Shown here: one piece after another, positions 1 through 53,007 of the stretch
Numbering within the stretch: the stretch's first letter is position 1
Layout: the number at the start of each line of letters is the position of its first letter
NCBI RefSeq assembly: GCF_014174395.1
Contig: NZ_JABEQD010000007.1
Location: 124,001-188,000, forward strand
From: Gluconacetobacter aggeris
GTDB lineage: Bacteria; Pseudomonadota; Alphaproteobacteria; Acetobacterales; Acetobacteraceae
Length of the DNA: 64,000 bases
Direction of reading: 5' to 3'
Made by a program: the position numbers and the translations under genes
The notes under the pieces: model-generated
Databases searched by the model: none
What the model saw: only the letters and a program-made list of their open reading frames with translations
Told to the model about the DNA's origin: nothing

Positions 1-938
1 AGCCCGAGATCATCCGCGCCGGTGGCGTAGACGATCACATCGGCATTCCTCGTCAGGACCTCGCATTCTGGCGCGTCGATCAGGACGACCACAGGTTCCG
101 CGATATGCGGCGCGAACTGCTGGACACCGGCTTTCATCGACCCCGCGAACTCCGGATTGATGACGACGAGCAGGACGCGACTTCCCGGATCGATCTGCGC
201 CAGTTTCATCCGCGTCTCCATCGACGGAATGAAGGTGATGACCGCCACGCCCAGTCCGGGCAACATACGCGCGACCTCGGTGCGGCGATGTGCAAATGTC
301 ACAGCCATCTGACACAAGTCAACACGCTGCCGTTCTGACGGATTCGTCTGCAACTGGGTGATGGTCGTCGGCAGAAACCGTACCTTCCCCTCGCTCAGCC
401 GCTCCATCTGCCGACAATAGGCAATTGTGGTCTGCATGAAATTGCCGACGACCATCACCGATGGCGGGGGCACACCCAGGCCGCCACCTTCCATCCGCGC
501 GCTGACCAGGCCCAGGACCTCGCTCGTGCTCAGCCCCAGCGCCCGGGCACGGGTGACCAACACATCGATCGCGGATTGGATCTCCGAGCCGCGCGCGCCT
601 CGGGCCGACCATCCGGCCATCAGGTCGGCAACGAACGTGCCTGCCCCGGTCCGTCCGCGCAGTACGCCGCCGCGCTTGAGTTCGGCATAGACCTGCCCCA
701 CCGTGACCGGGGAAATGCCCAGCCGCTCGGCCAGTTCGCGAACAGGCGGAAGCCGCTGGCCCGGCCTGATGACGCCGAGCCCGATCCCGTATTCGATCTG
801 TCCCTTGAGTTGCGTTCCGATCGGCAGGTCCAGAGTCCTGTCGATCCGAAAGAGGGTCACGTCCAGGCGCTCGCCCCCATCCTGTTCCACCACCTCCGGG
901 TTGGCGCTGTCCTGTCGAATGAGATCCTCCTCCTCCAT
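1..938 (-). CDS. GntR-family transcriptional regulator (partial, C-terminus cut by window edge)
   Basis: The minus strand is open from an ATG at 938 to the left edge (at least 312 codons) and runs off the window, so the C-terminus is missing. Residues about 25-90 form a GntR winged helix-turn-helix, with LPPVRELAERLGISPVTVG followed by a wing ending GAGTFVADL. The rest is an alpha/beta effector-like domain I cannot assign to a named subfamily. It lies divergent from the TonB receptor at 1166, across about 230 bp that must hold both promoters, so it probably controls the peptide-uptake genes 1166-6834 (inference). The start is weakly supported, with no clear Shine-Dalgarno sequence; ATG 938 is simply the first in-frame methionine. 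Confidence 0.8.
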   Translation of the reverse strand, partial: MEEEDLIRQDSANPEVVEQDGGERLDVTLFRIDRTLDLPIGTQLKGQIEYGIGLGVIRPGQRLPPVRELAERLGISPVTVGQVYAELKRGGVLRGRTGAGTFVADLMAGWSARGARGSEIQSAIDVLVTRARALGLSTSEVLGLVSARMEGGGLGVPPPSVMVVGNFMQTTIAYCRQMERLSEGKVRFLPTTITQLQTNPSERQRVDLCQMAVTFAHRRTEVARMLPGLGVAVITFIPSMETRMKLAQIDPGSRVLLVVINPEFAGSMKAGVQQFAPHIAEPVVVLIDAPECEVLTRNADVIVYATGADDLG

Positions 939-1165
939 CGCCGGACCTGTTCGACAACATTCGGGAACGGCGCAACGTGCCTGCTCATATTAGGACGGAA
1001 ACTTGTTACACACAAGGATGCTAAAATTCGCCAAATCGTCCATTTTGTATCATTGCAGAGTAACATTTTGTGTGCTTAATCCGATAACGGTTCGTTCCGG
1101 TCGATGAATGACCTGCCGGCGGACCCGACGACCCGACATGACGCAACGGAGACGCAGGCACGCAT

Positions 1166-3505
1166 ATGTTCACCAGAAAGATGAACCCCTTCGGCGCCGC
1201 AGCCTTCATGCTGCTGTCCTCGACCGCCCTGGCTGCGACACCGCAGAACGCCACGCCCCATCAGAAGCAGCATGCGAAACCGGAGCGTTCACATGCGGCA
1301 TCGAGCGCGAAGAACGAAAACGTCATGGTCACCGCGGCACTCCGGGCCGCCCACAGCGCCATCACAGACGTGTCCAGGAAGGACATGGAAAAATTCGTCG
1401 CAGGCACAAGCCCGCTCAAGATCCTCGGCAGCCTGACGGGCGCGAACTTCGTGTCCAACGATCCCCTTGGCCTCGATATCTATTCGAAATCGTTCTATGT
1501 GCGCGGCTTCAACCAGAGCCAGCTCGGCGCGACGCTCGACGGCATTCCGCTCGGGGACCAGTCTTACAACAAATATAACGGCCTCGACGTCAATTCGGCG
1601 ATCACACAGGACAATATCGCCCGGATGAATCTCAGCCAGGGCGGCGGCGACGTCACGCTTCCGTCGACCAGCGAACTGGGCGGCGCGATGGAATTCTATT
1701 CCGCCGATCCGGCCGACAAGGCAGGCGGCATGATCTCGCAGATGTTCGGCAGCTACAACAGCTATCGCACCTACATAAAGGGCGATACCGGCACCTTCAC
1801 GCCTTTCGGAACGAAGGCATATGTATCCTATATGCGGGTCGATGCCGATAAATGGAAAGGCTATGGTGACCAGTTCACCCAGCAGGTCAATGCCAAGATC
1901 GTCCAGCCCATCGGAAACAACAGCAGTATCAAGGCATTTTTCAACTGGAGCGATCTCGCCCAGTACGAATACCAGGACCTGTCCCTGGAGCTGCTGCACA
2001 AGGTAGGCCAGCGCCTGGACAACTACGCGCCCGACTACCGCACCGCCTACCTCGCCGCGCAGGGGATTTATCCCTCGTCCTTCGCCTCGCTGTCCGATCC
2101 CGCCGATGCCGCCTACTACAATGGCGGACAGGCCGAACGCGATTATCTGGGCGGCCTGACACTCGATTTCGACATGGGCCACCATATCCGCTGGAAGACG
2201 TTGTTCTACGGCCATGGCAGCCAGGAATACTCGACCTGGGCGAACCCCTATGTCGCATCGCCGACCGGCGCCCCGCTATCGTTCATGGTCATCCCCGAGC
2301 AGGTCCGGCGCCTGGGTTTCACGACCGAGATGACCCACACCTACGAAAACAACGTGCTGCGCACGGGCGTATGGTTCGAGAATAATTGTTACGATATCGG
2401 AAAATATTACTATTCCGAACCCGCCCTCGGGCAGGGCGCTCCGATCGGCGCAGTCGGCCCGTTCAGCACCTATGGCGGCCCGTTCGCCCAGGTCTGGGGC
2501 ATGGGCTTCAACACCAACACGGTCCAATACCACCTGACCGATACGTACCACATCCTGCCGGGCCTCGCGATCACCGGCGGTTTCAAGTCCCTCGTCGTCA
2601 CCACGGCCGGCGGTGCGAACGAAAATAACGTCTCCTACACCCATGTCGACCAGTTGCCGAACGGCAGCGTCACCTCATCGGCAGCGTTCCTGCCGCACGT
2701 CAATATCGACTGGCATTTCCTCAAAAACCACGAGCTTTATTTCGACGTGGCAGAGAACATGCGCGCCTTCACCTACGAAGGCTACCAGTCGGGTAGCGTG
2801 CCGTCCCTGTGGGGCGTCAAAAACCAGGCGGCATTCGATATCGCGCGCCGGACATTGCGTCCGGAACGCAACTGGACCTACGTCGTCGGCTATCATTATT
2901 ACGGCAAGGTCGTGTCGGCTTCCGTCGACGCCTACCGCTCGAACTTCACCAACCGCCTCGGGCTCATGGCCTCCGGCTCGCTGGTCAATCCGACCTCGAC
3001 CGTCGGCAATCTCGGCGGCGTAACCATGAACGGCGTGGATGCCGACGTCGTGATCCACCCGATCCGCCATCTCGCAATCGACAACAGCATCAGCTACAAT
3101 CGCTCGACATACGATAACAACATCACCTCGGCAGGCGTGCTCTATTATCTGCAGGGCAAGAAGGTTCCCGCCTACCCTCAGTTCATGTACAAAACGAGCC
3201 TGACCTACAGCTACGAGGGGCTCTCGGCTCATTTCGATGCAAGCTACATTTCACGCCGCTACCTCAGCTACACCAACGATACCAGCGTGCCGGGCTTCTG
3301 GATGACGAATGTCGGTGCGCGATACAGCTTCGGCCAGCAGAGCATCTTCCGCGACCTCTCGGTCTCGTTCGATGTCTACAACCTGCTGAACACACCCTAC
3401 ATCTCGACGGTGGGCGAGCAGGGCTTCCCGCTGGTGGGCGACCGCCAGTCCCTGCTGGCAGGCTCGCCCCGCCAGTTCTTCGGCTCCATCAGCGCCAGGT
3501 TCTGA
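1166..3505 (+). CDS. TonB-dependent outer-membrane receptor
   Basis: A 779-residue protein starts with a signal peptide (hydrophobic run AAAFMLLSSTALA, cleavage near residue 24). A plug domain follows at about residues 65-190 (YVRGFNQSQLGATLDG, then a GGAMEFYSAD stretch), then a long beta-barrel ending in the typical terminal phenylalanine (SISARF). Length and layout fit an energised outer-membrane importer. It is the first gene downstream of a divergent GntR regulator. A POT-type peptide transporter begins 1 bp after its stop, so the natural substrate is probably a peptide or peptide-like compound rather than an iron chelate (inference from context; no siderophore genes are nearby). Confidence 0.9.
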   Translation: MFTRKMNPFGAAAFMLLSSTALAATPQNATPHQKQHAKPERSHAASSAKNENVMVTAALRAAHSAITDVSRKDMEKFVAGTSPLKILGSLTGANFVSNDPLGLDIYSKSFYVRGFNQSQLGATLDGIPLGDQSYNKYNGLDVNSAITQDNIARMNLSQGGGDVTLPSTSELGGAMEFYSADPADKAGGMISQMFGSYNSYRTYIKGDTGTFTPFGTKAYVSYMRVDADKWKGYGDQFTQQVNAKIVQPIGNNSSIKAFFNWSDLAQYEYQDLSLELLHKVGQRLDNYAPDYRTAYLAAQGIYPSSFASLSDPADAAYYNGGQAERDYLGGLTLDFDMGHHIRWKTLFYGHGSQEYSTWANPYVASPTGAPLSFMVIPEQVRRLGFTTEMTHTYENNVLRTGVWFENNCYDIGKYYYSEPALGQGAPIGAVGPFSTYGGPFAQVWGMGFNTNTVQYHLTDTYHILPGLAITGGFKSLVVTTAGGANENNVSYTHVDQLPNGSVTSSAAFLPHVNIDWHFLKNHELYFDVAENMRAFTYEGYQSGSVPSLWGVKNQAAFDIARRTLRPERNWTYVVGYHYYGKVVSASVDAYRSNFTNRLGLMASGSLVNPTSTVGNLGGVTMNGVDADVVIHPIRHLAIDNSISYNRSTYDNNITSAGVLYYLQGKKVPAYPQFMYKTSLTYSYEGLSAHFDASYISRRYLSYTNDTSVPGFWMTNVGARYSFGQQSIFRDLSVSFDVYNLLNTPYISTVGEQGFPLVGDRQSLLAGSPRQFFGSISARF

Positions 3506-3506
3506 C

Positions 3507-4982
3507 ATGATGGAGCCCCGCCGACGCACCTTCCTGCGGATCGCCACGCTCGAATTGTGCGAACGGTTCGGCTTCTACGGCCTGCAGAGCGTCTCGGTCC
3601 TGTATTTCGTCAGGACCATGGGTCTGTCGGAACAGGGCGCCATCATGCTGTGGGGCGCATTCAGCGCCCTCATGTTCGGCGTGCCCGTTCTGGGCGGCTG
3701 GCTTGGCGACAGGATTCTGGGCGCCCGGCGGACGGTCGCCGTCGCGCTCGCACTGCTGGCCATCGGCTATACCGGCCTGGCCAGCGGCATGGGCGGCGCG
3801 ACCGGTGTCTCGCTGGTGCTGGCCGTCCTGGTCTGCGGCGGCGGCATCTTCAAGCCCAACATCACCAGCCTGCTGCGTCACGCCTTCAGCGGCGCCGACG
3901 ACCGGCTCGATATCGTTTTCACCATCTACTACATGTCCATCAATATCGGGGCGACAATCGCGGCCCTCGCCATTCCCTTCCTCGCCGTGCATATCGGCTG
4001 GCAGGCAAGCTTCGGTATCGCCGCCGCCGTGCTGTGGGCCGGTTTCGCGGTCTCGCTGACGCTGCCGGCCACGGCGCCCCCGCCGGCCGGCGCGCCGGAT
4101 CGCCGCCTGTGGCTGCTGCTCGGTGCCGGTATCGGCGCGGCCTTTACACTGCTTCACTATCCGGCGCTCGCGAGGGCCTGCATCTGGGTCGCGGCCGCCG
4201 CCATCCTGCTGATCTGGATCATGCTCTACCGGCGTTCGAAACCCGCCTGGCGCGCGGGCCTGAAACTATCCTTCGCCCTCCAGTCCGAAGCGATCCTGTT
4301 CTTCCTGTTCAACCAGCAGATCGCGACCTCACTGACCGGCTTCGCGCGCGACCACGTCGCGGCCACGATCCGCCTCGAGGGCATGGACTGGGCGCTGCAA
4401 CCCGGCCAGTTCCAGTCGCTGAACAATCTGTGGATCGTCGCGTTCGCCCCCTGCCTCGCCGCACTCTATTACCGCGCCGAACGGAAGGGGCGCCCGATTT
4501 CCGTCCCAATCCGCTTCCTGTCCGGCTTCGTACTGCTGACCGGCTCCTTCGTCCTGTGGCGCGCGGCAGCACTGGCTGGCGCGGCCGGGCCGGTCTCGCC
4601 CTGGTGGATGGTCGCGGGATATGCGCTGTTCTCATTGGGCGAACTGCTGATCGCAGCCCTCGGGCTCGCCGTCATCGCCCGCTACGCACCCCCCGACGGC
4701 GTCGGCCGCCTGATGGGGTGTTTCTCTGTCCTCGGCGGCCTTGCCAGCTATCTCGGCAGCCTCGTCGCCACCGATGCCACGCGCGGGCCGGCAGGAGGTC
4801 TCGGCGCGGCTTCCATCGCCGGATATGCCCATCTGTTCGGCAACCTGGCCGCGCTGGCTGCGCTCGTCGCCCTCGCTTCCGCCCTGTTCATCCCCTTCGC
4901 CCGCAAGATGGACGCACACTGGCGCCGCGCGCTTCCGCCACCGCCGGCCGCCAACGAACCAATCCTGGAAACCCTGCCATGA
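3507..4982 (+). CDS. POT/PTR-family proton-coupled oligopeptide transporter
   Basis: A 491-residue polytopic inner-membrane protein. The N-terminus carries the POT signature ExxERFxxYG (E16, E19-R20-F21, Y24-G25), and a second family motif, GGGIFKPN, occurs near residue 110. These residues mark proton-coupled di/tripeptide symporters. It starts 1 bp after the TonB receptor stop and overlaps the next gene by ATGA, so outer-membrane and inner-membrane uptake are probably co-transcribed and coupled in translation to the downstream hydrolases. Substrate is inferred to be a small peptide. MFS transporters of other classes are less likely because of the ERF motif. Confidence 0.88.
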   Translation: MMEPRRRTFLRIATLELCERFGFYGLQSVSVLYFVRTMGLSEQGAIMLWGAFSALMFGVPVLGGWLGDRILGARRTVAVALALLAIGYTGLASGMGGATGVSLVLAVLVCGGGIFKPNITSLLRHAFSGADDRLDIVFTIYYMSINIGATIAALAIPFLAVHIGWQASFGIAAAVLWAGFAVSLTLPATAPPPAGAPDRRLWLLLGAGIGAAFTLLHYPALARACIWVAAAAILLIWIMLYRRSKPAWRAGLKLSFALQSEAILFFLFNQQIATSLTGFARDHVAATIRLEGMDWALQPGQFQSLNNLWIVAFAPCLAALYYRAERKGRPISVPIRFLSGFVLLTGSFVLWRAAALAGAAGPVSPWWMVAGYALFSLGELLIAALGLAVIARYAPPDGVGRLMGCFSVLGGLASYLGSLVATDATRGPAGGLGAASIAGYAHLFGNLAALAALVALASALFIPFARKMDAHWRRALPPPPAANEPILETLP

Positions 4983-7044: not shown

Positions 7045-7118
7045 TGGAGCGGGTGAAGGGAATCGAACCCTCGTATGCAGCTTGGGAAGCTGCCGTTCTA
7101 CCATTGAACTACACCCGC
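7045..7118 (-). tRNA. tRNA-Gly (anticodon CCC)
   Basis: The reverse strand folds into a standard cloverleaf. The acceptor stem is GCGGGTG/CACCCGC with discriminator T and an encoded CCA. The anticodon stem is GCAGC/GCTGC around loop TTCCCAA (anticodon CCC), and the T-arm loop is GTTCGATTC. Total length is 74 nt including CCA. It is a single tRNA with no neighbours transcribed with it. Confidence 0.95.
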
Positions 7119-7245
7119 GTCGCGGCTAGCCCTATACCGCACCGGCCGGCCCGATGCAATCCACCCCCACCCGCCCCACATGGTTGACGAGCAGCCCCGC
7201 GATCCGCAATAACCCTGACGTCCAATGGCCCCAGGGGGCTGCGGG

Positions 7246-7305
7246 GCCCTCGTGATTTGGATCGGCCGGCTTGCGACGAGGTTAAACAGACGCGCTAAAG
7301 AGGCC
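7246..7305 (+). promoter_or_regulatory. SAM-II (metA-type) riboswitch
   Basis: The layout matches the SAM-II aptamer. The P1 stem CCTCG (7248-7252) pairs with CGAGG (7277-7281). The enclosed loop reads TGATTTGG then GCCGGCTTGC, a TTAAACA linker follows, and the conserved 3' segment is GCTAAAGAGGCC (7294-7305), whose GGCC can pair back into the loop as the pseudoknot. SAM-II elements precede methionine-biosynthesis genes in alphaproteobacteria and switch off expression when S-adenosylmethionine is abundant. The next gene on this strand is metZ. Unusually, about 137 bases separate the element from the metZ ATG. Confidence 0.88.
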
Positions 7306-7442
7306 TGACACCGCCAGACTCCGCGGGCGTCACGGTTTCCACGGTCGGATTTCCGCGCCAGGACGCGGGGGCCACGGAGCCGGTTCGCCACCCGGATGCT
7401 CCCAGCCTCGGCCTCCTGACGGTTTTGTTCCGGGAACTGACG

Positions 7443-44713: not shown

Positions 44714-45436
44714 ATGGAGCCCCTGCCTCATATTCTGGTCGTCGACGACGACCGCGAAATCCGCGATCTTCTCGCCCGTTTCCTCGAACGCAACATGTTC
44801 CGCGTCACCACGGCGCGCGACGGGCGCGAAACCCGCAAGGCGTGGCAGGCCGGCCATTACCAGATCGTGGTGCTGGACCTGATGCTGCCCGGCGAAACCG
44901 GTCTGGAACTCGCCCGCTGGCTGCGCGAGCAGGCCAATGTGCCCATCATCATGCTGACGGCGATGGGCGAGGAGACCGACCGCATCATCGGCCTGGAAAT
45001 GGGCGCCGACGATTACCTGCCCAAACCCTTCAACCCGCGCGAACTGCTGGCGCGAATCCGCGCCATCCTGCGCCGGACCAGCGAGGCCGCTCCCCTGCGC
45101 GGCGCCGGCGGCGCGGCCCAGTGCCTGCATTTCTCGGGCTGGACGCTGGACGCCACAAGGCGGCGGCTGCTCAACCCCGACGGCACCGAGGTGGCACTGA
45201 CGGGCGGCGAATACGACCTGCTGACGGCATTGCTCGACCGCGCCAACCGGGTGCTGACCCGCGACATGCTGTTCGACCTGCTGCGCGGCCGCCAGGCCGG
45301 CCCCTTCGACCGCGCGATAGACGTCGCCATCAGCCGTCTGCGCCGCAAGCTGGAAGATGACGGCCGCAACGCCCAGCTCATCAAGACCGTCCGCGGGGGC
45401 GGCTACGTGCTGGCATCCGATGTCGAACGCAGTTGA
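44714..45436 (+). CDS. OmpR-family response regulator
   Basis: A 240-residue regulator. The receiver domain has acidic pocket D11-D13, phospho-acceptor D55 (VVLDLMLPGE) and K104. The C-terminal winged helix ends DRAIDVAISRLRRKLEDD...IKTVRGGGYVLA. It pairs with the histidine kinase 52 bp downstream. The closest look is to the OmpR/RstA/FeuP type. The stimulus is unknown, but the divergent PRC-barrel envelope protein may be a target. Confidence 0.93.
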   Translation: MEPLPHILVVDDDREIRDLLARFLERNMFRVTTARDGRETRKAWQAGHYQIVVLDLMLPGETGLELARWLREQANVPIIMLTAMGEETDRIIGLEMGADDYLPKPFNPRELLARIRAILRRTSEAAPLRGAGGAAQCLHFSGWTLDATRRRLLNPDGTEVALTGGEYDLLTALLDRANRVLTRDMLFDLLRGRQAGPFDRAIDVAISRLRRKLEDDGRNAQLIKTVRGGGYVLASDVERS

Positions 45437-45463
45437 TGAACGCAGTTGATAAACGCAGTTGAT
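45425..45463 (+). repeat. Three tandem 13-bp repeats across the response-regulator stop codon
   Basis: GAACGCAGTTGAT occurs twice exactly and once with one change (45425-45463), with a degenerate fourth copy after. The first unit contains the response-regulator stop codon. Slippage here would change the tail of the regulator gene and its spacing to the kinase gene. Confidence 0.7.
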
Positions 45464-45488
45464 GACCAGAGCTGAAGACCGACGCTGA

Positions 45489-46955
45489 ATGAACGCCGCC
45501 GATTCGGGCCAGGCCGCCCGCACGCCCAGCCTGCCCCGCCGCGTGCTCCGCTGGTTCTGGCCCCGCTCGCTGGCAGCCCGCACCAGCCTGCTGCTGATCG
45601 TCGGCCTGGGGATCATCGAGGCCATCGGGCTGACCGTCCACGCGCTGGACCGCATCGATTTCGACCGCCGCATGATCCAGCAGGAAAGCCAGAATCATGT
45701 CGGCATGATCTATCGCTCGATCGTCGAGACCCAGCCGCAGGACCGCGAGGCCGAACTCGAGGCCCTGCACCCGCCCGCGACCTTCCACATCGCCCTCACC
45801 CCCGGCCCCGACCCCGACATGGTCGAACAGACGGCCAACGACCCGCTGGCCCATATGCATATGGGCCAGCCCCCCTTCGGGCACGAGCCCTTCGACCGGC
45901 CGCCCTTCGCCCGCTCGCCCCAGGGCCAGCCGCCGCTGCCGCCCCACCTGCGGCCGCGCCAGATCCTGTTCAGCGCGCCGCACGGCTCGCCCCGGCGGGC
46001 GGTGGCGTTCCTGCTGCCCGACGAGACACGGTGGCTGACGATCCGCTACACCCTGCCGGCGCCCAATCCGTTCCGCTCTCCCACCTTCCCGACCGCCTTC
46101 GCGCTGATGACGGTGGCCGGCGGCGTGCTGATCGTCTGGGGCGTGCGGCGGCTGGTCGCCCCCGTCGGCACCCTGGCGGCAGCGGCCGAGGCCCTGGGCC
46201 GTGACGTCAACGCCCCACCGATGTCCGAGGACGGGCCGCTGGAAATCGCCCGCGCGGCGCAGGCCTTCAACACCATGGCCAACCGCATCAGGCGCTTCCT
46301 CACCGACCGCACCCTGATGCTGACGGCCATCGGCCACGATTTGCGCACCCCCATCACCCGCCTGAAGCTGCGGGCCGAATTCGTCGAGGACGACGAGCTG
46401 CGCGGCAAGTTCCTGGCCGACTTGGACGAGCTTGAGGCCATGGTCTCCGCCACCTTGGCCTTCGGGCGCGATACCTCGCGGCGCGAGCCCATGGGCCGCC
46501 TGGACCTGACCGCCCTGCTCCAGACCATCCTGGACGAAGCCGCGGAAACCCACCCCGACCAGGCCGACGCGATCGGCTTCGCCGTCCCCCCGCCGGCGGT
46601 GACGATCGAGGCCCGCCCGGTGGCGCTGAAGCGCGCGCTGAACAACCTGATCCAGAACGCCATCCTCTATGGCGGCGGCGCCCGGGTCACGCTGGAAACG
46701 CCGCTGCCGGAAAACGAGGGCGAAAGGCTGGTCACGGTCCTGATCGAGGATGACGGCCCCGGCCTCCCCCCCGAGGATCTCAACCGGATGTTCGAACCCT
46801 TCGTCCGCGCCGAAATCAGCCGCAACCGCGAAACCGGCGGCACCGGCCTGGGCCTGGCCATCGCCCGCAACATCATCTGGGGCCTCGGCGGCGACATCCG
46901 CCTGGGCAACCGCACGCCCCACGGGCTACGCGCCACAGTCACCCTCGTCTGCTGA
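45489..46955 (+). CDS. EnvZ-type sensor histidine kinase
   Basis: A 488-residue kinase with an N-terminal membrane helix, a periplasmic domain rich in Pro/His/Met (HMHMGQPPFGHEPFDRPPF), a second helix near residue 205, HAMP, the H-box GHDLRTPITRL (H283), and ATP-binding N, G1 (DDGPGLPP) and G2 (GGTGLGLAIARN) boxes. The Met/His-rich sensor region could bind copper or another metal (inference). It is the partner of the upstream OmpR-type regulator. Confidence 0.92.
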   Translation: MNAADSGQAARTPSLPRRVLRWFWPRSLAARTSLLLIVGLGIIEAIGLTVHALDRIDFDRRMIQQESQNHVGMIYRSIVETQPQDREAELEALHPPATFHIALTPGPDPDMVEQTANDPLAHMHMGQPPFGHEPFDRPPFARSPQGQPPLPPHLRPRQILFSAPHGSPRRAVAFLLPDETRWLTIRYTLPAPNPFRSPTFPTAFALMTVAGGVLIVWGVRRLVAPVGTLAAAAEALGRDVNAPPMSEDGPLEIARAAQAFNTMANRIRRFLTDRTLMLTAIGHDLRTPITRLKLRAEFVEDDELRGKFLADLDELEAMVSATLAFGRDTSRREPMGRLDLTALLQTILDEAAETHPDQADAIGFAVPPPAVTIEARPVALKRALNNLIQNAILYGGGARVTLETPLPENEGERLVTVLIEDDGPGLPPEDLNRMFEPFVRAEISRNRETGGTGLGLAIARNIIWGLGGDIRLGNRTPHGLRATVTLVC

Positions 46956-46975
46956 AGCGCGTGAATATGCGCGCC

Positions 46976-46997
46976 AACGCCAACCGCCTTTGGCGTT
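46976..46997 (+). terminator. Hairpin after the histidine kinase gene
   Basis: An AACGCCAA / TTGGCGTT stem of 8 bp with a 6-base loop, starting 20 bp after the stop. A short T stretch follows. It marks the boundary to the IS630 fragment. Confidence 0.5.
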
Positions 46998-46999
46998 TA

Positions 47000-47405
47000 C
47001 ATTGAGCAGACATCCGCGCAGACGGGCCATCTTCGTCGAGACGGCGGTTTCGTCCATGAAGACCAGCCGGGCCCGATCAAGGTCAGGCTGACTGTCGAAC
47101 CAGGCCTCGCGCCGCTCTGCGACGTCGGGCCGTGTCTGCTCGCTGGCGTGCGCCGTTTTTTTTACGATCATGTCGTGACGGTCAAGGCAGCGCCAGATCG
47201 TGCTCGGCGCGAAGCGGACCCCATGTTCCGTAGCAAGTTTCTCCGCCAGCGCGATGAGGGAGATGTCTGCCCTGGCTTCAATCGCAGCCAACAAGACGCC
47301 CGACCAGGCCTCGATCCGATGGGAGCGACGATCATCACCCTGCCGCGGCGCGTGCTCCCGGCCGCTCGCACGCCATTCCGCCACCCAGCGGATCACGCTG
47401 AACTT
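47000..47405 (-). pseudogene. IS630-family transposase fragment
   Basis: On the minus strand the frame encodes VIRWVAEWRASG, GRxxSHRIEAW-like sequence, FAPSTIWRCLDRHD, KKTAHASEQTRPDVA and LVFMDETAVSTKMARLRGC. This is the middle of an IS630-type transposase up to the first catalytic Asp (DET). Both ends are lost: the N-terminal helix-turn-helix start is replaced by unrelated sequence, and after RGC the frame runs into non-IS DNA. No inverted repeats were found. It marks the left edge of the AT-rich block, and the 549-bp gap 46956-47504 holds only this and the hairpin. Confidence 0.82.
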
Positions 47406-47504
47406 AAACGCCCGCTGCTCGCCGCGTATAAAAACGCAGAATACCAGACACACTCGTCATCCGCGCCCAGGTCTCCTAAGCATTCGCGTTGTACGGCCTT
47501 CAGA

Positions 47505-48122
47505 TTATCCATGCCGCTCGATCTGGCGTGTCAGAGCCCGAATCAGCGCATCTATATTGCCATTATTGCGTTCAATATAGGAGACATAATCCTGTCTTTC
47601 CGTTAAGCGTAAACTTACACCTTCAGCTATCATATCCACGACTTTTGGACCACCACTCGCCTGATTGACAATCCACAGGACGTTGGCCCTCGTCTGATTG
47701 GGGCGAACAATAACTGTCTCCACGGCCATATCGTCACCGGAGGGTGAAGCGCGACCTATACTGAACGTCACCCCACGATAATCACCAAGCCTGTCGGCGA
47801 TCGAATTCGTAAACATAGCATGAAACAAATCAAGATAATGCTGCTTCTGTTCGGGTGTCGAAGTTCGCCAATATGTGCCCAAACAGTAACGGGCAACATC
47901 ATCCACATCCACCATCCTATCCAGGAAAGGACGGATCTGAATCTTCTTTTCTGAAGGCGACATATCGCTGTTAATGATATCCACCAACTGACCGCCAAGC
48001 GTCTTCACGAAGACTTTCGCGGCAAGCGCGGAATCAGTTGCGAATGCCGAACGTGTTACCGCCAAACATGCAACGCCAACAACTGCAATGAAAACTTTTC
48101 GACGGGAAGAATGTTTCCCCAT
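47505..48122 (-). CDS. MlaC/HpnM-like periplasmic phospholipid-binding protein
   Basis: A 205-residue protein with a signal peptide (VFIAVVGVACLAVTRSAFA). It matches MlaC/Ttg2D: DVDDVARYCLGTYWRTSTPEQ, YLDLFHAMFTNSIADRLGDY, then a VRPNQTRANVLWIV core. MlaC carries phospholipids between the outer-membrane MlaA complex and the inner-membrane MlaFEDB transporter. HpnM, the hopanoid-cluster relative, cannot be excluded. Visibly lower GC than the core genes. The inner-membrane Mla subunits are not in the window. It is downstream of the sensor kinase on the same strand (32 bp). Confidence 0.85.
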   Translation of the reverse strand: MGKHSSRRKVFIAVVGVACLAVTRSAFATDSALAAKVFVKTLGGQLVDIINSDMSPSEKKIQIRPFLDRMVDVDDVARYCLGTYWRTSTPEQKQHYLDLFHAMFTNSIADRLGDYRGVTFSIGRASPSGDDMAVETVIVRPNQTRANVLWIVNQASGGPKVVDMIAEGVSLRLTERQDYVSYIERNNGNIDALIRALTRQIERHG

Positions 48123-48154
48123 AACGGTCTCCTCTGAATACAACCTGCATCTAC

Positions 48155-49486
48155 CTACGGAAGAACAATGAGAACCTGTAGGCCGCCTTGCTCGTGATTG
48201 AGCAGTTTAATTTCGCCTCCATGGGCATGGACGATGGCGCGAGCCGATGTTAACCCCAATCCGACACCACCCGTTTTTCGGTTGCGCGAAAGTTCGACGC
48301 GGTAGAAAGGCGAAAAGACCTTCCCGATATGGTCTTCCGGAATACCCGGACCCCGGTCCCGGACAGAAACCATGGTTCCATGGCCGTTCGCTTCTATGGA
48401 AACCACAGCCTCATCTCCATATGCACAAGCATTTTCAATAATATTTCCAAATGCCCTCTTGAGAGCAACTGGTCGGCCGCTATAGACAACAGGCTCCGCT
48501 TCATGAAGTTTGGCGTTACGACCCTGGTCGACAAGGTCATCTACAATCACTTGCAGCAACTCCGTAAGTGCGAAGGTCGTGGACTGCTCGGCCAAAGTCT
48601 CATCGCGAAAGAAAGCAAGCGCCGAGTCGATCATTGTCTGCATCTCGTCAACATCGCGAAAGAGTCGGTGCCGCTGATCGAGATCGTCGATGAATTCACC
48701 TCTCAGCCGCACCCGCGTCAATGGCGTCCGGAGATCATGCGATATAGCGGCAAGCATGTTCGTTCGATCCGTTATAAATCGGCGAATCTGGGTCTGCATC
48801 GCGTTGAACGATGCCGTTGCCGCCTGAAGCTCTCTCGGGCCTCGCTCGATCATCGGAGGCGCATTCGGATCTGTACCGAAGCGGCGGGCGGCAATCGTGA
48901 ATGCCTCGAACGGCCTGACAAGATTCCGGGCACCCAACCACGAGACAGCGCCTGTCGAAACGAGAACAAAGCAGCCTATCAAAGTATAGCGCATCCAGGG
49001 TCCCATACCCCACCGTCGCTTCGGCACCTTGAAGATCAGCCACGAGCCATCTGAAAGCGATATGGCCATACCGTAAGCGTCCGTGCCAAAAATCCTGTCA
49101 TGTGGAACCGTTCGTGCGAAAATAGAGGTTTGATAGAGAACGATTTTTCGGTCGGGATCATTGAGAAGGCGACGCATCGCCGCCTGAACGGACGACGAGG
49201 CACCTTCCCTGGGGGATGCGGGAATTTCTGGACGCCACTCCATCCTGAACACATCGTTTGTCGCCGCAGCGGCGATCTGGGCCCGCAGGTCACGCGGAAT
49301 AACCGAGTATATCCGGACCAGCGTCGCCGCTTGCCCTTCCAGCCCCGTCTCGCTCAGATCCGGCCTAGCCCAAACCCCTGCTGTACTGATGAAGAATATA
49401 TACAGGCAAACCGAGGCCGACACCGCGAGCAGAACCGTCAGGGCCAGACGTCTTGCGATTGTATCGTAGATGAGCAGGAACTTCAT
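48155..49486 (-). CDS. Sensor histidine kinase (second system, AT-rich block)
   Basis: A 443-residue EnvZ-type kinase: N-terminal helix (LALTVLLAVSASVCLYIFF), periplasmic loop of about 130 residues, second helix (YTLIGCFVLVSTGAVSWL), HAMP, H-box SHDLRTPLTRVRL, and ATP-binding G boxes DRGPGIP and GGVGLGLTSARA. It resembles the kinase at 45489 in the catalytic core (SRNRxTGGxGLGL) but differs in the sensor domain. It overlaps the regulator stop by ATGA. Lower GC suggests acquisition. Confidence 0.92.
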   Translation of the reverse strand: MKFLLIYDTIARRLALTVLLAVSASVCLYIFFISTAGVWARPDLSETGLEGQAATLVRIYSVIPRDLRAQIAAAATNDVFRMEWRPEIPASPREGASSSVQAAMRRLLNDPDRKIVLYQTSIFARTVPHDRIFGTDAYGMAISLSDGSWLIFKVPKRRWGMGPWMRYTLIGCFVLVSTGAVSWLGARNLVRPFEAFTIAARRFGTDPNAPPMIERGPRELQAATASFNAMQTQIRRFITDRTNMLAAISHDLRTPLTRVRLRGEFIDDLDQRHRLFRDVDEMQTMIDSALAFFRDETLAEQSTTFALTELLQVIVDDLVDQGRNAKLHEAEPVVYSGRPVALKRAFGNIIENACAYGDEAVVSIEANGHGTMVSVRDRGPGIPEDHIGKVFSPFYRVELSRNRKTGGVGLGLTSARAIVHAHGGEIKLLNHEQGGLQVLIVLP

Positions 49487-50199
49487 CCTGGCCGCACGTC
49501 CAAAGTGAATATATATCCACCACTCCGAACGGTTTTTATAATAGATGGATCTTTCGCATTCGGCTCAAGCTTGCGTCGCAACCGACTGACCTGCGTATCG
49601 ATGGAACGGTCGAAGGCATCATGACGCTCCCCATGGGCCAGATCGAGAAGTTGATCACGGCTCATGACCTCATGCGGGCGCTCGACGAACGCCAGCAGCA
49701 AATCAAACTCCCGCCCGGACAGCGGAATCAGTATGTTTTTTGCCGTCCTCAACTCCCGGCGTGCGATGTCCAAGCGCCAGGAACCAAATAACAGCAAAGG
49801 CCGTGTCTGGGTTGTTGGCTGCCGCATCGGCTCTATGCGGCGCAAGACTGCCTTGACTCGCGCCAGCAACTCACGCTGATCGAACGGCTTGGTAATATAG
49901 TCGTCGGCTCCAAGTTCAAGCCCGACGATTCTGTCGGTCAGGGCATCAACAGCAGTCAGCATTATGATGGGAACCTGTGATTTCTTTCGAAGTTCCGCGC
50001 AAAGTTCGAGACCGTTCTCTCCGGGCATCATAAGGTCAAGAATAACGAGGTTGATCGATGCCGCCTCCAATACGGCGAACATTTCACGTCCGTCGCTAGC
50101 GACACTGACCTCATGCCCGTAAGTTTCGAAGAATCGTGTTAGAAGCAACAGGATTTCCTCGTCATCATCTACGATCAGAAGGTGGGTCATGTTCGTCAT
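49483..50199 (-). CDS. OmpR-family response regulator (second system)
   Basis: A 238-residue regulator starting at ATG 50199, with AAGGG just upstream. The acidic pocket is D11-D13, the phospho-acceptor D55 (VILDLMMPGE), and the winged helix ends SIDTQVSRLRRKLEPN...IKTVRSGGYIF. It is transcribed first and coupled to the kinase, then the MlaC-like gene. It is divergent from the MlaA gene, across a gap with repeated TGTCA half-sites that may be its binding sites. Confidence 0.93.
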   Translation of the reverse strand: MTNMTHLLIVDDDEEILLLLTRFFETYGHEVSVASDGREMFAVLEAASINLVILDLMMPGENGLELCAELRKKSQVPIIMLTAVDALTDRIVGLELGADDYITKPFDQRELLARVKAVLRRIEPMRQPTTQTRPLLLFGSWRLDIARRELRTAKNILIPLSGREFDLLLAFVERPHEVMSRDQLLDLAHGERHDAFDRSIDTQVSRLRRKLEPNAKDPSIIKTVRSGGYIFTLDVRPG

Positions 50200-50229
50200 G
50201 CGCCCTTTTAGCAGGAAGTTGTCCCAAAA

Positions 50230-50302
50230 TGATGTCAAGTTGCTTCGGTTTTATGTCAGATCTTACACAATACACCCTTTTTTTGAAAAAAAGCTGACAT
50301 CA
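50230..50302. promoter_or_regulatory. Repeated TGTCA half-sites between the response regulator and mlaA
   Basis: TGATGTCA (50230-50237), TATGTCA (50252-50258) and the inverted TGACATCA (50295-50302) lie in the 180-bp divergent gap. Spaced, repeated half-sites suit an OmpR-type regulator controlling both directions. A T7-G-A7 palindrome near 50278-50292 lies within. Confidence 0.45.
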
Positions 50303-50379
50303 AAAACCGAATGCGATCAGGTAGAGTTCCAAGGATACGACGCACTGGCGCAGACACAATCCGAAGGAACAGGTTCGTC

Positions 50380-51150
50380 ATGCAGGTAACACCAATCAGA
50401 TCCTCCAAATATATCTTGTTTTTCTTTCCAGTAATGTTCGCCGCCGGGTGCGCGCACAATAAAAATGACATCGTCGCGAATGATCCGGTCGCACCAGCCA
50501 ATCGTACTGTATTCGACGGGAATCTCTTCGTCGATCATCATGTGCTGCGTCCGGTGGCACGGACATATGCGGCCAATGTGCCTGGCGGCGTCAAACGTGG
50601 CATTCATAATTTTTCCACCAATCTCAATGAGCCGAAAGTACTTGTAAATGATGTCCTACAGGGAAACTTCAGCCGCTCCTGGAATACCCTCAAACGGTTT
50701 ACCATAAACTCGACGGTAGGAGTCCTGGGGATCTTCGATTTTGCCCAGGTATGGGGAATGCCATACCACAACGCCGATTTCGGCCAGACACTTGGTGTCT
50801 GGGGCATAGGGCCTGGGCCGGATGTCCAATTGCCTCTTATGGGATTTTCCAATGCACGTGATGCCGCGGGAAGTCTCGCAGGAATTGTCCTGAATCCGAC
50901 GACTTTCGTCAGCGCGGGCGTGGTGTCCGTGGTCAGGGGCGCATCATCTGGCCTGGATGTCGTGGACGGAAGGGCGAGCACCCTCGCTGTAACCGACGAC
51001 GTTGAAAGGAACTCTCTCGACGAATATGCAAGCCTGCGCGCAATGACGACTCAACACCGAGCGGCATTCATACAAGAGGGTATCCAGGGAAAAATCAAAC
51101 CTGATAACCTTGCCGTCGCTGCGAATCAGAATGTCATCTCCATGAAATAA
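50380..51150 (+). CDS. mlaA: MlaA/VacJ-family outer-membrane lipoprotein
   Basis: A 256-residue lipoprotein (lipobox FAAGC after SKYILFFFPVM) starting at ATG 50380. MlaA blocks are visible: FDGNLFVDHHVLRPVARTY, NFSTNLNEPKVLVNDVLQG, FTINSTVGVLGIFDFAQ and FGQTLGVWGIGPGPDVQLP. MlaA forms a ring-like channel in the inner leaflet of the outer membrane and extracts misplaced phospholipids for MlaC. Here it is divergent from a two-component system and opposite an MlaC-like gene, so the regulator may control both. Confidence 0.9.
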   Translation: MQVTPIRSSKYILFFFPVMFAAGCAHNKNDIVANDPVAPANRTVFDGNLFVDHHVLRPVARTYAANVPGGVKRGIHNFSTNLNEPKVLVNDVLQGNFSRSWNTLKRFTINSTVGVLGIFDFAQVWGMPYHNADFGQTLGVWGIGPGPDVQLPLMGFSNARDAAGSLAGIVLNPTTFVSAGVVSVVRGASSGLDVVDGRASTLAVTDDVERNSLDEYASLRAMTTQHRAAFIQEGIQGKIKPDNLAVAANQNVISMK

Positions 51151-51524
51151 TGAATGTTAACAAAATATTTTTATGTATATATCGCAAGATGCCAATGAAA
51201 TATATAATAAAGAACTCACAATGCAGAGACAATAAATCGTTTAACTGGTCTCACAACGATTCCAGTACATGCCTCCAATGACATAAAGCACCATACCATG
51301 GTGAGTGACCTCGATGAGAACTTATCCGACGTCTCTCGTAATGAGGCCACCGCGCGAGACGGGTTTGAATTGCATTCATTGGTGCGGATCCGTCTTCTTT
51401 ACTCTTGACGTCCTTGAACTCCAACCAAACGAGACAATTGGATGCCGGTCAAGTACCATCTCATATGCGGCAATCATTATGGGTTGCGAAATGTTCAGGA
51501 GCGTCTCGCGACGCGTGACCGATC
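51151..51524. other. Gene-free AT-rich stretch between mlaA and the acyltransferase
   Basis: No supported gene and no clear terminator. The first 130 bp are strongly AT-rich (AATATTTTTATGTATATAT). The second half has open frames on both strands, but none gives recognisable protein sequence. It could be decayed coding DNA from the same transfer. Confidence 0.5.
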
Positions 51525-52436
51525 GTGACCTTGACGTGTAACGTCGGCGTCGCCCGGTCGCTACAGAGTTTGCAAGGGCTGGCATTGGGCGGCGCCATTC
51601 GCCTGCTCCAATGTTTGGAACCCACGATGTGTTCCCACTTCGGGGCCATTCTCGCACGAACCATCGGTCCTACCCTCGCAGTTTCCCGTGTGGCCCTTAA
51701 TAATCTTAAAATCGCATTTCCGGAAATGGCCGAATCCCGTCGGCATGCCATCATGCGTGACGCCTGGGATAATCTCGGCCGCCTCGTTGCCGAATTTCCA
51801 CATCTGCCGAACCTTGTCCGTACACAGGATGGTCCAGGCTGGGAGATCGTCGGTGAAGAGTTCATCGAGCAGGCATGGCGCAAGGGAAATCCACCACTAT
51901 TCTTTTCAGCGCATTTGGGAAATTGGGAAATGATCCTCCCGATCGCCGGCGCACTTGGCTTACCAGTGGGTGGGGTGTACCGCAGGACCAAGAACCCCGT
52001 TGTCGACTGGCTGATTCAGGACATCAGGAAACGTGCCAGCCGGGGAAGAAAAATGTTCCCCAAGGGTCGTCAGGGCGCCAGAGCGATTATCGCACATTTG
52101 TCCACCGGTGGTACGGTTGGCTTTCTAGTCGACCAAAAAATGAACGATGGAATAAAGATTCCTTTTTTCGGCAGGCCAGCATGGACCGCGCCCGCCATTG
52201 CGCATCTCGCACTACGCTTTGATAGAAACATCGTTCCCGTCAGGGTCGTACGAACCGGTCCTGCACGCTTTCGTCTCATTTGCGAACCCGCGCTCCAGAT
52301 CAATTTGTCCAATGACCAGAGAGAGGACGAAATCTCAATTATGTCGGCGATCAATCGCCATGTCGAAGGATGGATTCGCAGCTACCCGTCATCGTGGCTA
52401 TGGTTCCATCGAAGATGGCCAAAGGACGGTGCATAG
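51525..52436 (+). CDS. Lysophospholipid/lipid A acyltransferase family protein (LpxL/HtrB-like)
   Basis: A 303-residue enzyme from a GTG at 51525. The HX4E catalytic motif is HLGNWE, followed by GGVYRRTKNPVVDWLI and FLVDQKMNDGIKIPFFGRPA, which is the LpxL/HtrB pattern. It would add an acyl chain to lipid A or a related lipid at the inner membrane. GC is lower than the core. Together with MlaA and MlaC it makes the block an outer-membrane lipid module. The gene end abuts a broken RND pump. Confidence 0.86.
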   Translation: MTLTCNVGVARSLQSLQGLALGGAIRLLQCLEPTMCSHFGAILARTIGPTLAVSRVALNNLKIAFPEMAESRRHAIMRDAWDNLGRLVAEFPHLPNLVRTQDGPGWEIVGEEFIEQAWRKGNPPLFFSAHLGNWEMILPIAGALGLPVGGVYRRTKNPVVDWLIQDIRKRASRGRKMFPKGRQGARAIIAHLSTGGTVGFLVDQKMNDGIKIPFFGRPAWTAPAIAHLALRFDRNIVPVRVVRTGPARFRLICEPALQINLSNDQREDEISIMSAINRHVEGWIRSYPSSWLWFHRRWPKDGA

Positions 52437-52453
52437 AGAATCAAGGACGATCG

Positions 52454-52652
52454 CTCCGCGTCGGGCCGTGCCTGTGCCGCATCGTCTTCATGATCATGGC
52501 ACTGCTGGCCTGTTTCGGTATCCTGGCGTGGCGGGATATCGCGGTCGAGGCATATCCGACAGCCGGTCCAGCAGCACTTTCGGCCTGTCGTTGATCACCC
52601 TGATCTTCCGCGACGGGACAGACGTCTATTCCGCGCGCCAGAGCACGTCCAC
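52454..52652 (+). pseudogene. Heavy-metal RND efflux pump (CusA/CzcA-like) remnant
   Basis: One frame reads VFMIMALLACFGILAWRDIA then VEAYPTAGPA, matching the first membrane helix and the following IEAYPD-type motif of HME-RND pumps. A different frame slightly downstream reads TFGLSLITLIFRDGTDVYSA, which matches CusA/CzcA around residue 80-110. About 50 residues between them are deleted and the frame is shifted. The rest of the pump (over 900 residues) is gone; the IS3 remnant begins 22 bp later. Confidence 0.72.
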
Positions 52653-52673
52653 TGGACTATGAATTGTAGGGGA

Positions 52674-53007
52674 TGACGCGTCCCGGGTTTCCCGGAGGCT
52701 ATTTGGATTGAGTCACGCAGCCATATCGATGTTCTCAGAGGCTGCATAGTAGTTGGCTTCAGCCTCGGCGGGTGGGAATAGCGACGCTGCGCTGGGTGCA
52801 GTTCATGACGAGGTATTGAACGCCCCGGTCGCTATGGTGGATCAGGCCATCCCCGGGTCGCAGCCCATTCCGACCCGTAATCGGCCCGATGCTCCCCAAC
52901 CATACGGACCGCACGCTCCCGCACCTCAGGCGGAAATCTCTGGCTCATCGTGTTCATCATAGCTCCTTCTCACAGACAGGTGCCTCCGGGAAACCCGGGA
53001 CGCTTCA
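52674..53007 (-). mobile_element. IS3-family insertion sequence, internally deleted (about 334 bp)
   Basis: Perfect 22-bp inverted repeats (52678-52699 beginning GCGTCCCGGG; 52982-53003) bound the element, and TGA starts the repeat just outside on both ends. On the minus strand the start of orfA is intact ([19 protein letters not shown], from ATG 52960), fused to orfB sequence [12 protein letters not shown]. After a gap come the last residues of orfB (PAEAEANYYAASENIDMAA). No target duplication was found. It is not autonomous but has intact ends, so it could move in trans. Confidence 0.85.

Follow-up and report, generated by a model that had tools for sequence, protein, structure and literature searches.

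Genes of the Mla system are usually treated as housekeeping parts. The DNA analysed here, a stretch of 64 kb on contig 7 of the 4.32-Mb genome of Gluconacetobacter aggeris that is called the window in the following, raises the question of whether such genes can also be acquired, together with a regulatory system of their own. Within the window, a block of low GC content carries genes for proteins of the MlaA and MlaC families, a two-component pair and a lipid A acyltransferase. The features of the region, in window coordinates, are:

46926-47453, minus strand: fragment of an IS630-family transposase at the left edge (NF033545, 57 bits, profile positions 28-163 of 299; below the cut-off of 100 bits)
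47476-52644, no strand: block common to G. tumulicola (89.9% identity over 47476-52558, 95% over 52557-52644)
47505-48143, minus strand: MlaC-family periplasmic lipid carrier (PF05494, 118 bits), beginning 11 bp after the kinase gene
48155-49486, minus strand: EnvZ-like histidine kinase (HisKA and HATPase_c; H, D-x-GPG and G-x-G-x-GL boxes)
49483-50199, minus strand: OmpR-family response regulator (Response_reg and Trans_reg_C; ATG at 50199, longer TTG start at 50238)
50230-50302, no strand: predicted conserved divergent operator/promoter, with TGATGTC (50230), TATGTCA...ACACA (about 50252-50270) and GACATCA (50296-50302)
50380-51150, plus strand: MlaA2 lipoprotein (PF04333, 197 bits; lipobox AAG-C with Ala at +2; reading frame open from 50311)
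51525-52436, plus strand: LpxL/HtrB-type lipid A acyltransferase (PF03279, Lip_A_acyltrans, 175 bits; HLGNWE, HX4E)
52549-52647, plus strand: remnant of a CusA/CzcA-type RND pump (TIGR00914, E 5.5e-5, residues 118-150 of the ORF 52198-52662)
52680-53002, no strand: apparent IS deletion derivative with inverted ends, recognised from the sequence

The GC content of the block was about 53% (0.529 for 47476-52644), compared with 70-71% in the flanks (0.701 and 0.713). The 1-kb bins from 47001 to 53000 had values of 0.507-0.572, the four bins to the left 0.692-0.708 and the four bins to the right 0.688-0.725. The third-position GC was 0.48-0.60 for the five block genes and 0.86-0.93 for three flank genes. 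In the IS630 fragment, the region of about 47013-47400 matched plasmids of acetic acid bacteria with 82-93% DNA identity. The right end carries inverted repeats with a length of about 20 bp and a distance of about 320 bp, which fit a deletion derivative; when these ends were inspected by eye, no target-site duplication was recognised. The pump remnant comprises 33 residues in the window and is longer in the related locus L006 (76 residues, E 1.1e-11). This small fragment is a hint that the island may once have carried efflux. The preliminary description had named the five genes, the lower GC, the two IS remnants and the broken metal RND pump, and these elements were all recovered, the five genes by Pfam matches at 47.5-52.6 kb. 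An integrase or a tRNA site of its own was not found in the block, and among the proteins tested only IS remnants were recognised. The sole tRNA gene of the window lies at 7 kb; it encodes tRNA-Gly(ccc) (7045-7118) and has a SAM-alpha riboswitch (7239-7319) beside it.

The sequence motifs of the five proteins were present, including the lipobox, the kinase boxes and the acyltransferase motif. MlaA2 is a PF04333 lipoprotein with a lipobox, MlaC is a PF05494 carrier, and the acyltransferase combines PF03279 with the HX4D/E motif of the LpxL/HtrB family. At the level of NCBIfam, the best matches of MlaC were HpnM and MlaC, both below the cut-off, and none of the 17 matches of the acyltransferase reached its cut-off. 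The two-component pair has the domains of the OmpR/EnvZ family, a receiver and a winged helix in the regulator and HAMP, HisKA and HATPase in the kinase; HAMP, with 22.4 bits, was under its cut-off of 25 bits, and all the other domains scored above theirs. The model of the kinase sensor domain was of too low a quality to compare folds (pLDDT 62), and a structure search with it gave no match at E<=0.001. Because the regulator and kinase genes overlap by 4 bp and the gap to the MlaC gene is 11 bp, the three genes probably form one operon. The lpxL gene starts 374 bp downstream of mlaA2.

The joint occurrence of MlaA and MlaC had been regarded as unusual. This view could not be maintained, because the core mlaA and mlaC genes of the host are neighbours as well (C1:295251-296500), so that adjacency of the two genes is nothing out of the ordinary. 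The core proteins are 35% (MlaA) and 56% (MlaC) identical to those of the island. A third MlaC-family gene of the host, on contig C16, lies beside hpnJ and hpnI and is therefore probably hpnM. Outside the block, the host contains eight MlaD-domain stretches, of which three share one open frame, and no MlaFED transporter was present among the block's genes. Two other LpxL-family proteins of the host are 47% (at C2) and 30% identical to that of the island. As the host has its own Mla and LpxL-family genes, the island adds to host functions and does not replace them.

Next, the insertion site was compared in the 13 other genomes of the genus. Both flanks were found at near full length in 12 of them. 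The flanks are only 94-184 bp apart in seven genomes (G042, G215, G247, G305, G123, G299, G303) and about 2.6-6 kb apart in four (G277, G302, G300, G301); in G174 they are on different contigs, and the fragmented assembly G304 gave short flank matches only. The inserts in the four genomes lack the block's Mla genes, which characterises the site as a hotspot. The nearest carrier of the block is G302 (G. tumulicola), which has it on another contig than the insertion site. The identity of the block is 89.9%, compared with 97% for the flanks at the insertion site (94% and 97% for the re-aligned ends), and this different location and higher divergence argue for a separate acquisition and not for descent in place. 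At the same site, G302 holds a different insert of low GC (L072, about 600-3800, 0.49-0.56), and therefore the site attracts foreign DNA. A second OmpR/EnvZ-like pair, which belongs to the genus core, borders the insertion site (44714-46955). Compared with the island pair, the identity is about 48% for the regulator and 43% for the catalytic half of the kinase.

An ancestral chromosomal locus with a locally low GC would agree with the fact that the flanks of the site are core in the genus. However, it is contradicted by the near-empty site in 7 of the 13 other genomes, by the occurrence of MlaA2 in only 3 of 14 genus genomes and by the location and divergence of the block in the nearest carrier, and we regard it as hardly conceivable. 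The proposal that the block was acquired is thus upheld by its composition, by the near-empty sites and by the displaced copy in the close relative, and its mobility also by the presence of MlaA2 and a pair of this kind on a Lichenicola plasmid (NZ_CP053711.1). The atypical composition and the empty site in relatives are features of a genomic island or mobile insertion. In a plasmid search with the block DNA, 11 records were matched, only at the two IS ends and none covering 80%. With the MlaA protein, 68 records were matched; among the 30 matches listed, the Lichenicola plasmid was the best with 51% identity and the others were at most 40% identical. The flank of the G302 block matched 17 plasmid records, among those listed over at most 14% of the query and largely in an IS3 transposase.

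The preliminary description had also treated the five genes as one module. This was not borne out, because lpxL occurs only in the window and in L006/L068 among the loci compared, that is, in two species. An MlaC gene behind the kinase gene was found only in the window and L006/L068, with the contig of L007 ending just past the kinase; L008 contains a partial MlaC gene on the opposite strand at a contig end. A conserved system of five genes is therefore rejected for the loci compared. The recurrent core is a set of three genes, an accessory MlaA lineage, termed MlaA2, and one OmpR/EnvZ-like pair.

Proteins of the MlaA family as such are common in the Acetobacteraceae: with MlaA2 as query, some MlaA was found in 272 of 299 family genomes (E<=1e-30). 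Copies at least 50% identical to MlaA2 were present in 5 of the 299, among the matches listed. In a draw of 397 family genomes, 7 contained MlaA2, with 10 copies (E<=1e-56), and an order-level search of 395 genomes (E<=1e-58) yielded four carriers, all of them already known in the set. The same regulator/kinase clade adjoins MlaA2 in 8 of the 10 copies. The exceptions are the two copies of G168, one with MlaC and an unrelated pair nearby and the other without a full pair. Two contigs of metagenome-assembled genomes (L008 and L009) contain further MlaA2 copies with the same pair. The arrangements vary: in addition to the divergent orientation, mlaA2 can lie downstream of the kinase gene (L052/L053), and in L067 the MlaA and kinase genes are on one strand and the regulator gene is convergent. 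MlaA2 forms one clade of 13 sequences (support 100 and 98), and this pair is lacking for three of the members (L010, L054, L055). The Reyranella locus L010 has a weaker OmpR/EnvZ-like pair (regulator 47%, kinase 35% identical). In L054 (G168:C5), the genes for MlaA2, MlaC and the unrelated kinase/regulator pair are all on one strand, possibly a case in which Mla genes became linked to a two-component system independently. For 10 loci, the distances of MlaA2 were highly correlated with those of the regulator (Mantel r 0.918) and the kinase (0.943), and none of 5000 permutations reached values as high.

Could the block nevertheless be IS debris, i.e. a group of neighbours that were acquired independently and have no joint function? 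The IS remnants on both sides, the restriction of lpxL and the RND piece to the window and a near relative, and the different inserts that four relatives have at this site are in agreement with this explanation, which holds well for lpxL and perhaps for mlaC. Yet it leaves the recurring association of MlaA2 with the pair, the co-divergence and the operator unexplained, and for the block as a whole it is improbable.

The operator was recognised in an alignment of the divergent intergenic regions, which share TGATGTC, TATGTCA, a short spacer, ACACA and GACATCA, followed by an element that contains TAG and resembles a -10 box; we interpret this element as part of a promoter. A 52-bp matrix was trained on five divergent promoters (L006, L051, L008, L009, L018), and its maximum in a control of 42 loci, including core mlaA loci, was 14.0 bits (605,366 positions). 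In held-out loci, sites were found upstream of mlaA2 genes that are not divergent (L067 32.2, L053 23.2 and L052 20.7 bits) and at the regulator promoters (L052 31.4, L053 34.8 and L067 14.9 bits), showing that the operator follows mlaA2. Since L052 and L053 come from a single genome as sister copies (proteins 95-97% identical), the mlaA2 test represents two independent lineages and not three. L052 has an additional site of 14.7 bits at 4221, away from both genes. In the window, the site of 20.0 bits is the only place above 14.0 in 64 kb, with the close relative L006 being part of the training set. L007, the MlaA of which is 80% identical, reached 11.0 bits, below the control maximum. When the host genome was searched with a looser pattern, five matches with two mismatches were obtained (none in the reversed control), and as the best of them scored 8.3 on the matrix, no second operator was found in the host. 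Taken together, recurrence, co-divergence and the shared operator support the earlier proposal that a dedicated two-component system is tied to an MlaA.

A search with the regulator (E<=1e-76) yielded 30 matches in 24 of 397 genomes, 8 at MlaA2 and 22 not. The ancestral job of the pair therefore need not be related to Mla. The partners near the 22 sister pairs were DUF3313 proteins (12/22), DedA together with a PmtA-like phospholipid methyltransferase (5/22) and MipA (1/22); four loci were without any partner tested (L081, L084, L103, L107), and the contig of L103 ends inside the kinase region. Pfam cut-offs were passed by three DUF3313, two VTT/DedA and one MipA protein, and two PmtA-like proteins scored 97-100 bits with NF045881, below the cut-off of 250. 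The DedA and PmtA-like genes are divergent from the sister pair in L085, L086, L089, L090 and L092. MipA-like pieces also adjoin the pair in L052 and L053. When the MlaA2 label was mapped on a regulator/kinase tree that combined 10 MlaA2 loci with 12 of the 22 sisters, three changes were required, indicating exchange of the partner gene.

With the first matrix, sister sites were found in L083 (35.0 bits, upstream of the DUF3313 gene) and in L085, L086, L089 and L090 (20.7-30.3 bits, toward DedA). L081, L099 and L100 were barely above the control maximum (14.6-15.5 bits), and in two of them, L099 and L100, the site is directed away from the DUF3313 gene. Fourteen of the 22 sister loci (L082, L084, L087, L088, L091, L092, L098, L101-L107) remained under 14.0. 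A matrix retrained on 15 sites, several of them taken from related loci, gave 29.5-37.8 bits for L087, L092 and L103 (control maximum 11.4), a result that is partly circular. A Paraburkholderia pair, the regulator of which is 57.5% identical, has a 35.6-bit site between it and a divergent MipA/OmpV gene, and thus the operator reaches another class. In summary, the pair appears to belong to a two-component family associated with genes of the outer membrane and of envelope lipids, with a mobile MlaA2 form in some branches.

These partners bear on the role of MlaA2, which might chiefly be that of a co-sensor: the outer-membrane lipoprotein would report disturbed lipid packing to the kinase by which it is also induced. 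The DUF3313 and MipA partners of the sister pairs and the Paraburkholderia case fit such a role, and a Pseudomonas study offers a precedent, as MipA/MipB have been proposed to act with ParS in this way (PMC10936184). On the other hand, the DedA and PmtA-like proteins of five sister loci look like effectors, and a chiefly sensory MlaA2 seems rather unlikely.

We favour, as somewhat probable, the view that the block was acquired horizontally and serves as a module for outer-membrane lipid asymmetry under its own regulation. The kinase would sense an envelope disturbance, which the partner genes of the sister systems make plausible as the signal, and would phosphorylate the regulator. The regulator would then bind to the putative operator, which separates the divergent promoters, and, acting as an activator and not as a repressor, would raise the expression of its own operon (regulator-kinase-MlaC) and of mlaA2, perhaps with lpxL behind it. 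MlaA2 would reach the outer membrane, extract phospholipid that is misplaced in the outer leaflet, and pass it on to MlaC and an MCE transporter of the host. LpxL, found only in this version of the module, may alter the acylation of lipid A. As MlaA2, the pair and a conserved control site recur in relatives, the one-step acquisition of a self-controlled membrane repair function is probable. A wider and more tentative idea is an envelope two-component family with a conserved operator and an exchangeable output gene (MlaA2, DUF3313, a MipA barrel, or DedA with a PmtA-like enzyme), in which the MlaA2 form might be a travelling unit for inducible repair and sensing, the outer-membrane protein being both target and co-sensor. 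If an MlaA that is mobile and has its own sensor exists, it would offer a direct handle on the signal by which cells detect lost lipid asymmetry, and the sister systems are a hint that a broader family of regulators may be related to phospholipids.

In one open-licence collection of papers, nothing was found on VacJ/MlaA in Acetobacteraceae or Gluconacetobacter, on an MlaA paralogue with a two-component pair in alphaproteobacteria, or on a VacJ lipoprotein gene divergent from a response regulator. The excerpted text of a 2024 review lists Fur, iron deprivation, taurocholate, phenol and QseC as influences on mlaA expression, and an adjacent dedicated two-component pair is not among them (PMC11131202). 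The block resembles the Mla system (MlaA-MlaC-MlaFEDB) in its MlaA and MlaC family proteins and the lipobox of MlaA; it differs in that its MlaA is a separate lineage with its own two-component pair and in that MlaFED is absent from the block. OmpR and EnvZ are the best NCBIfam matches of the regulator and the kinase (232.8 and 194.3 bits), but the scores are under the equivalog cut-offs (331 and 415), and the island pair has a linked partner gene and its own operator. ParR/ParS of Pseudomonas lies beside the mipBA envelope genes and controls them, and the partners may feed the sensor (PMC10936184). The island pair likewise adjoins a gene for an envelope partner, which, however, is MlaA; the likeness noted is one of gene arrangement. 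In this sense, ParR/ParS-mipBA is the nearest working analogue of the island system.
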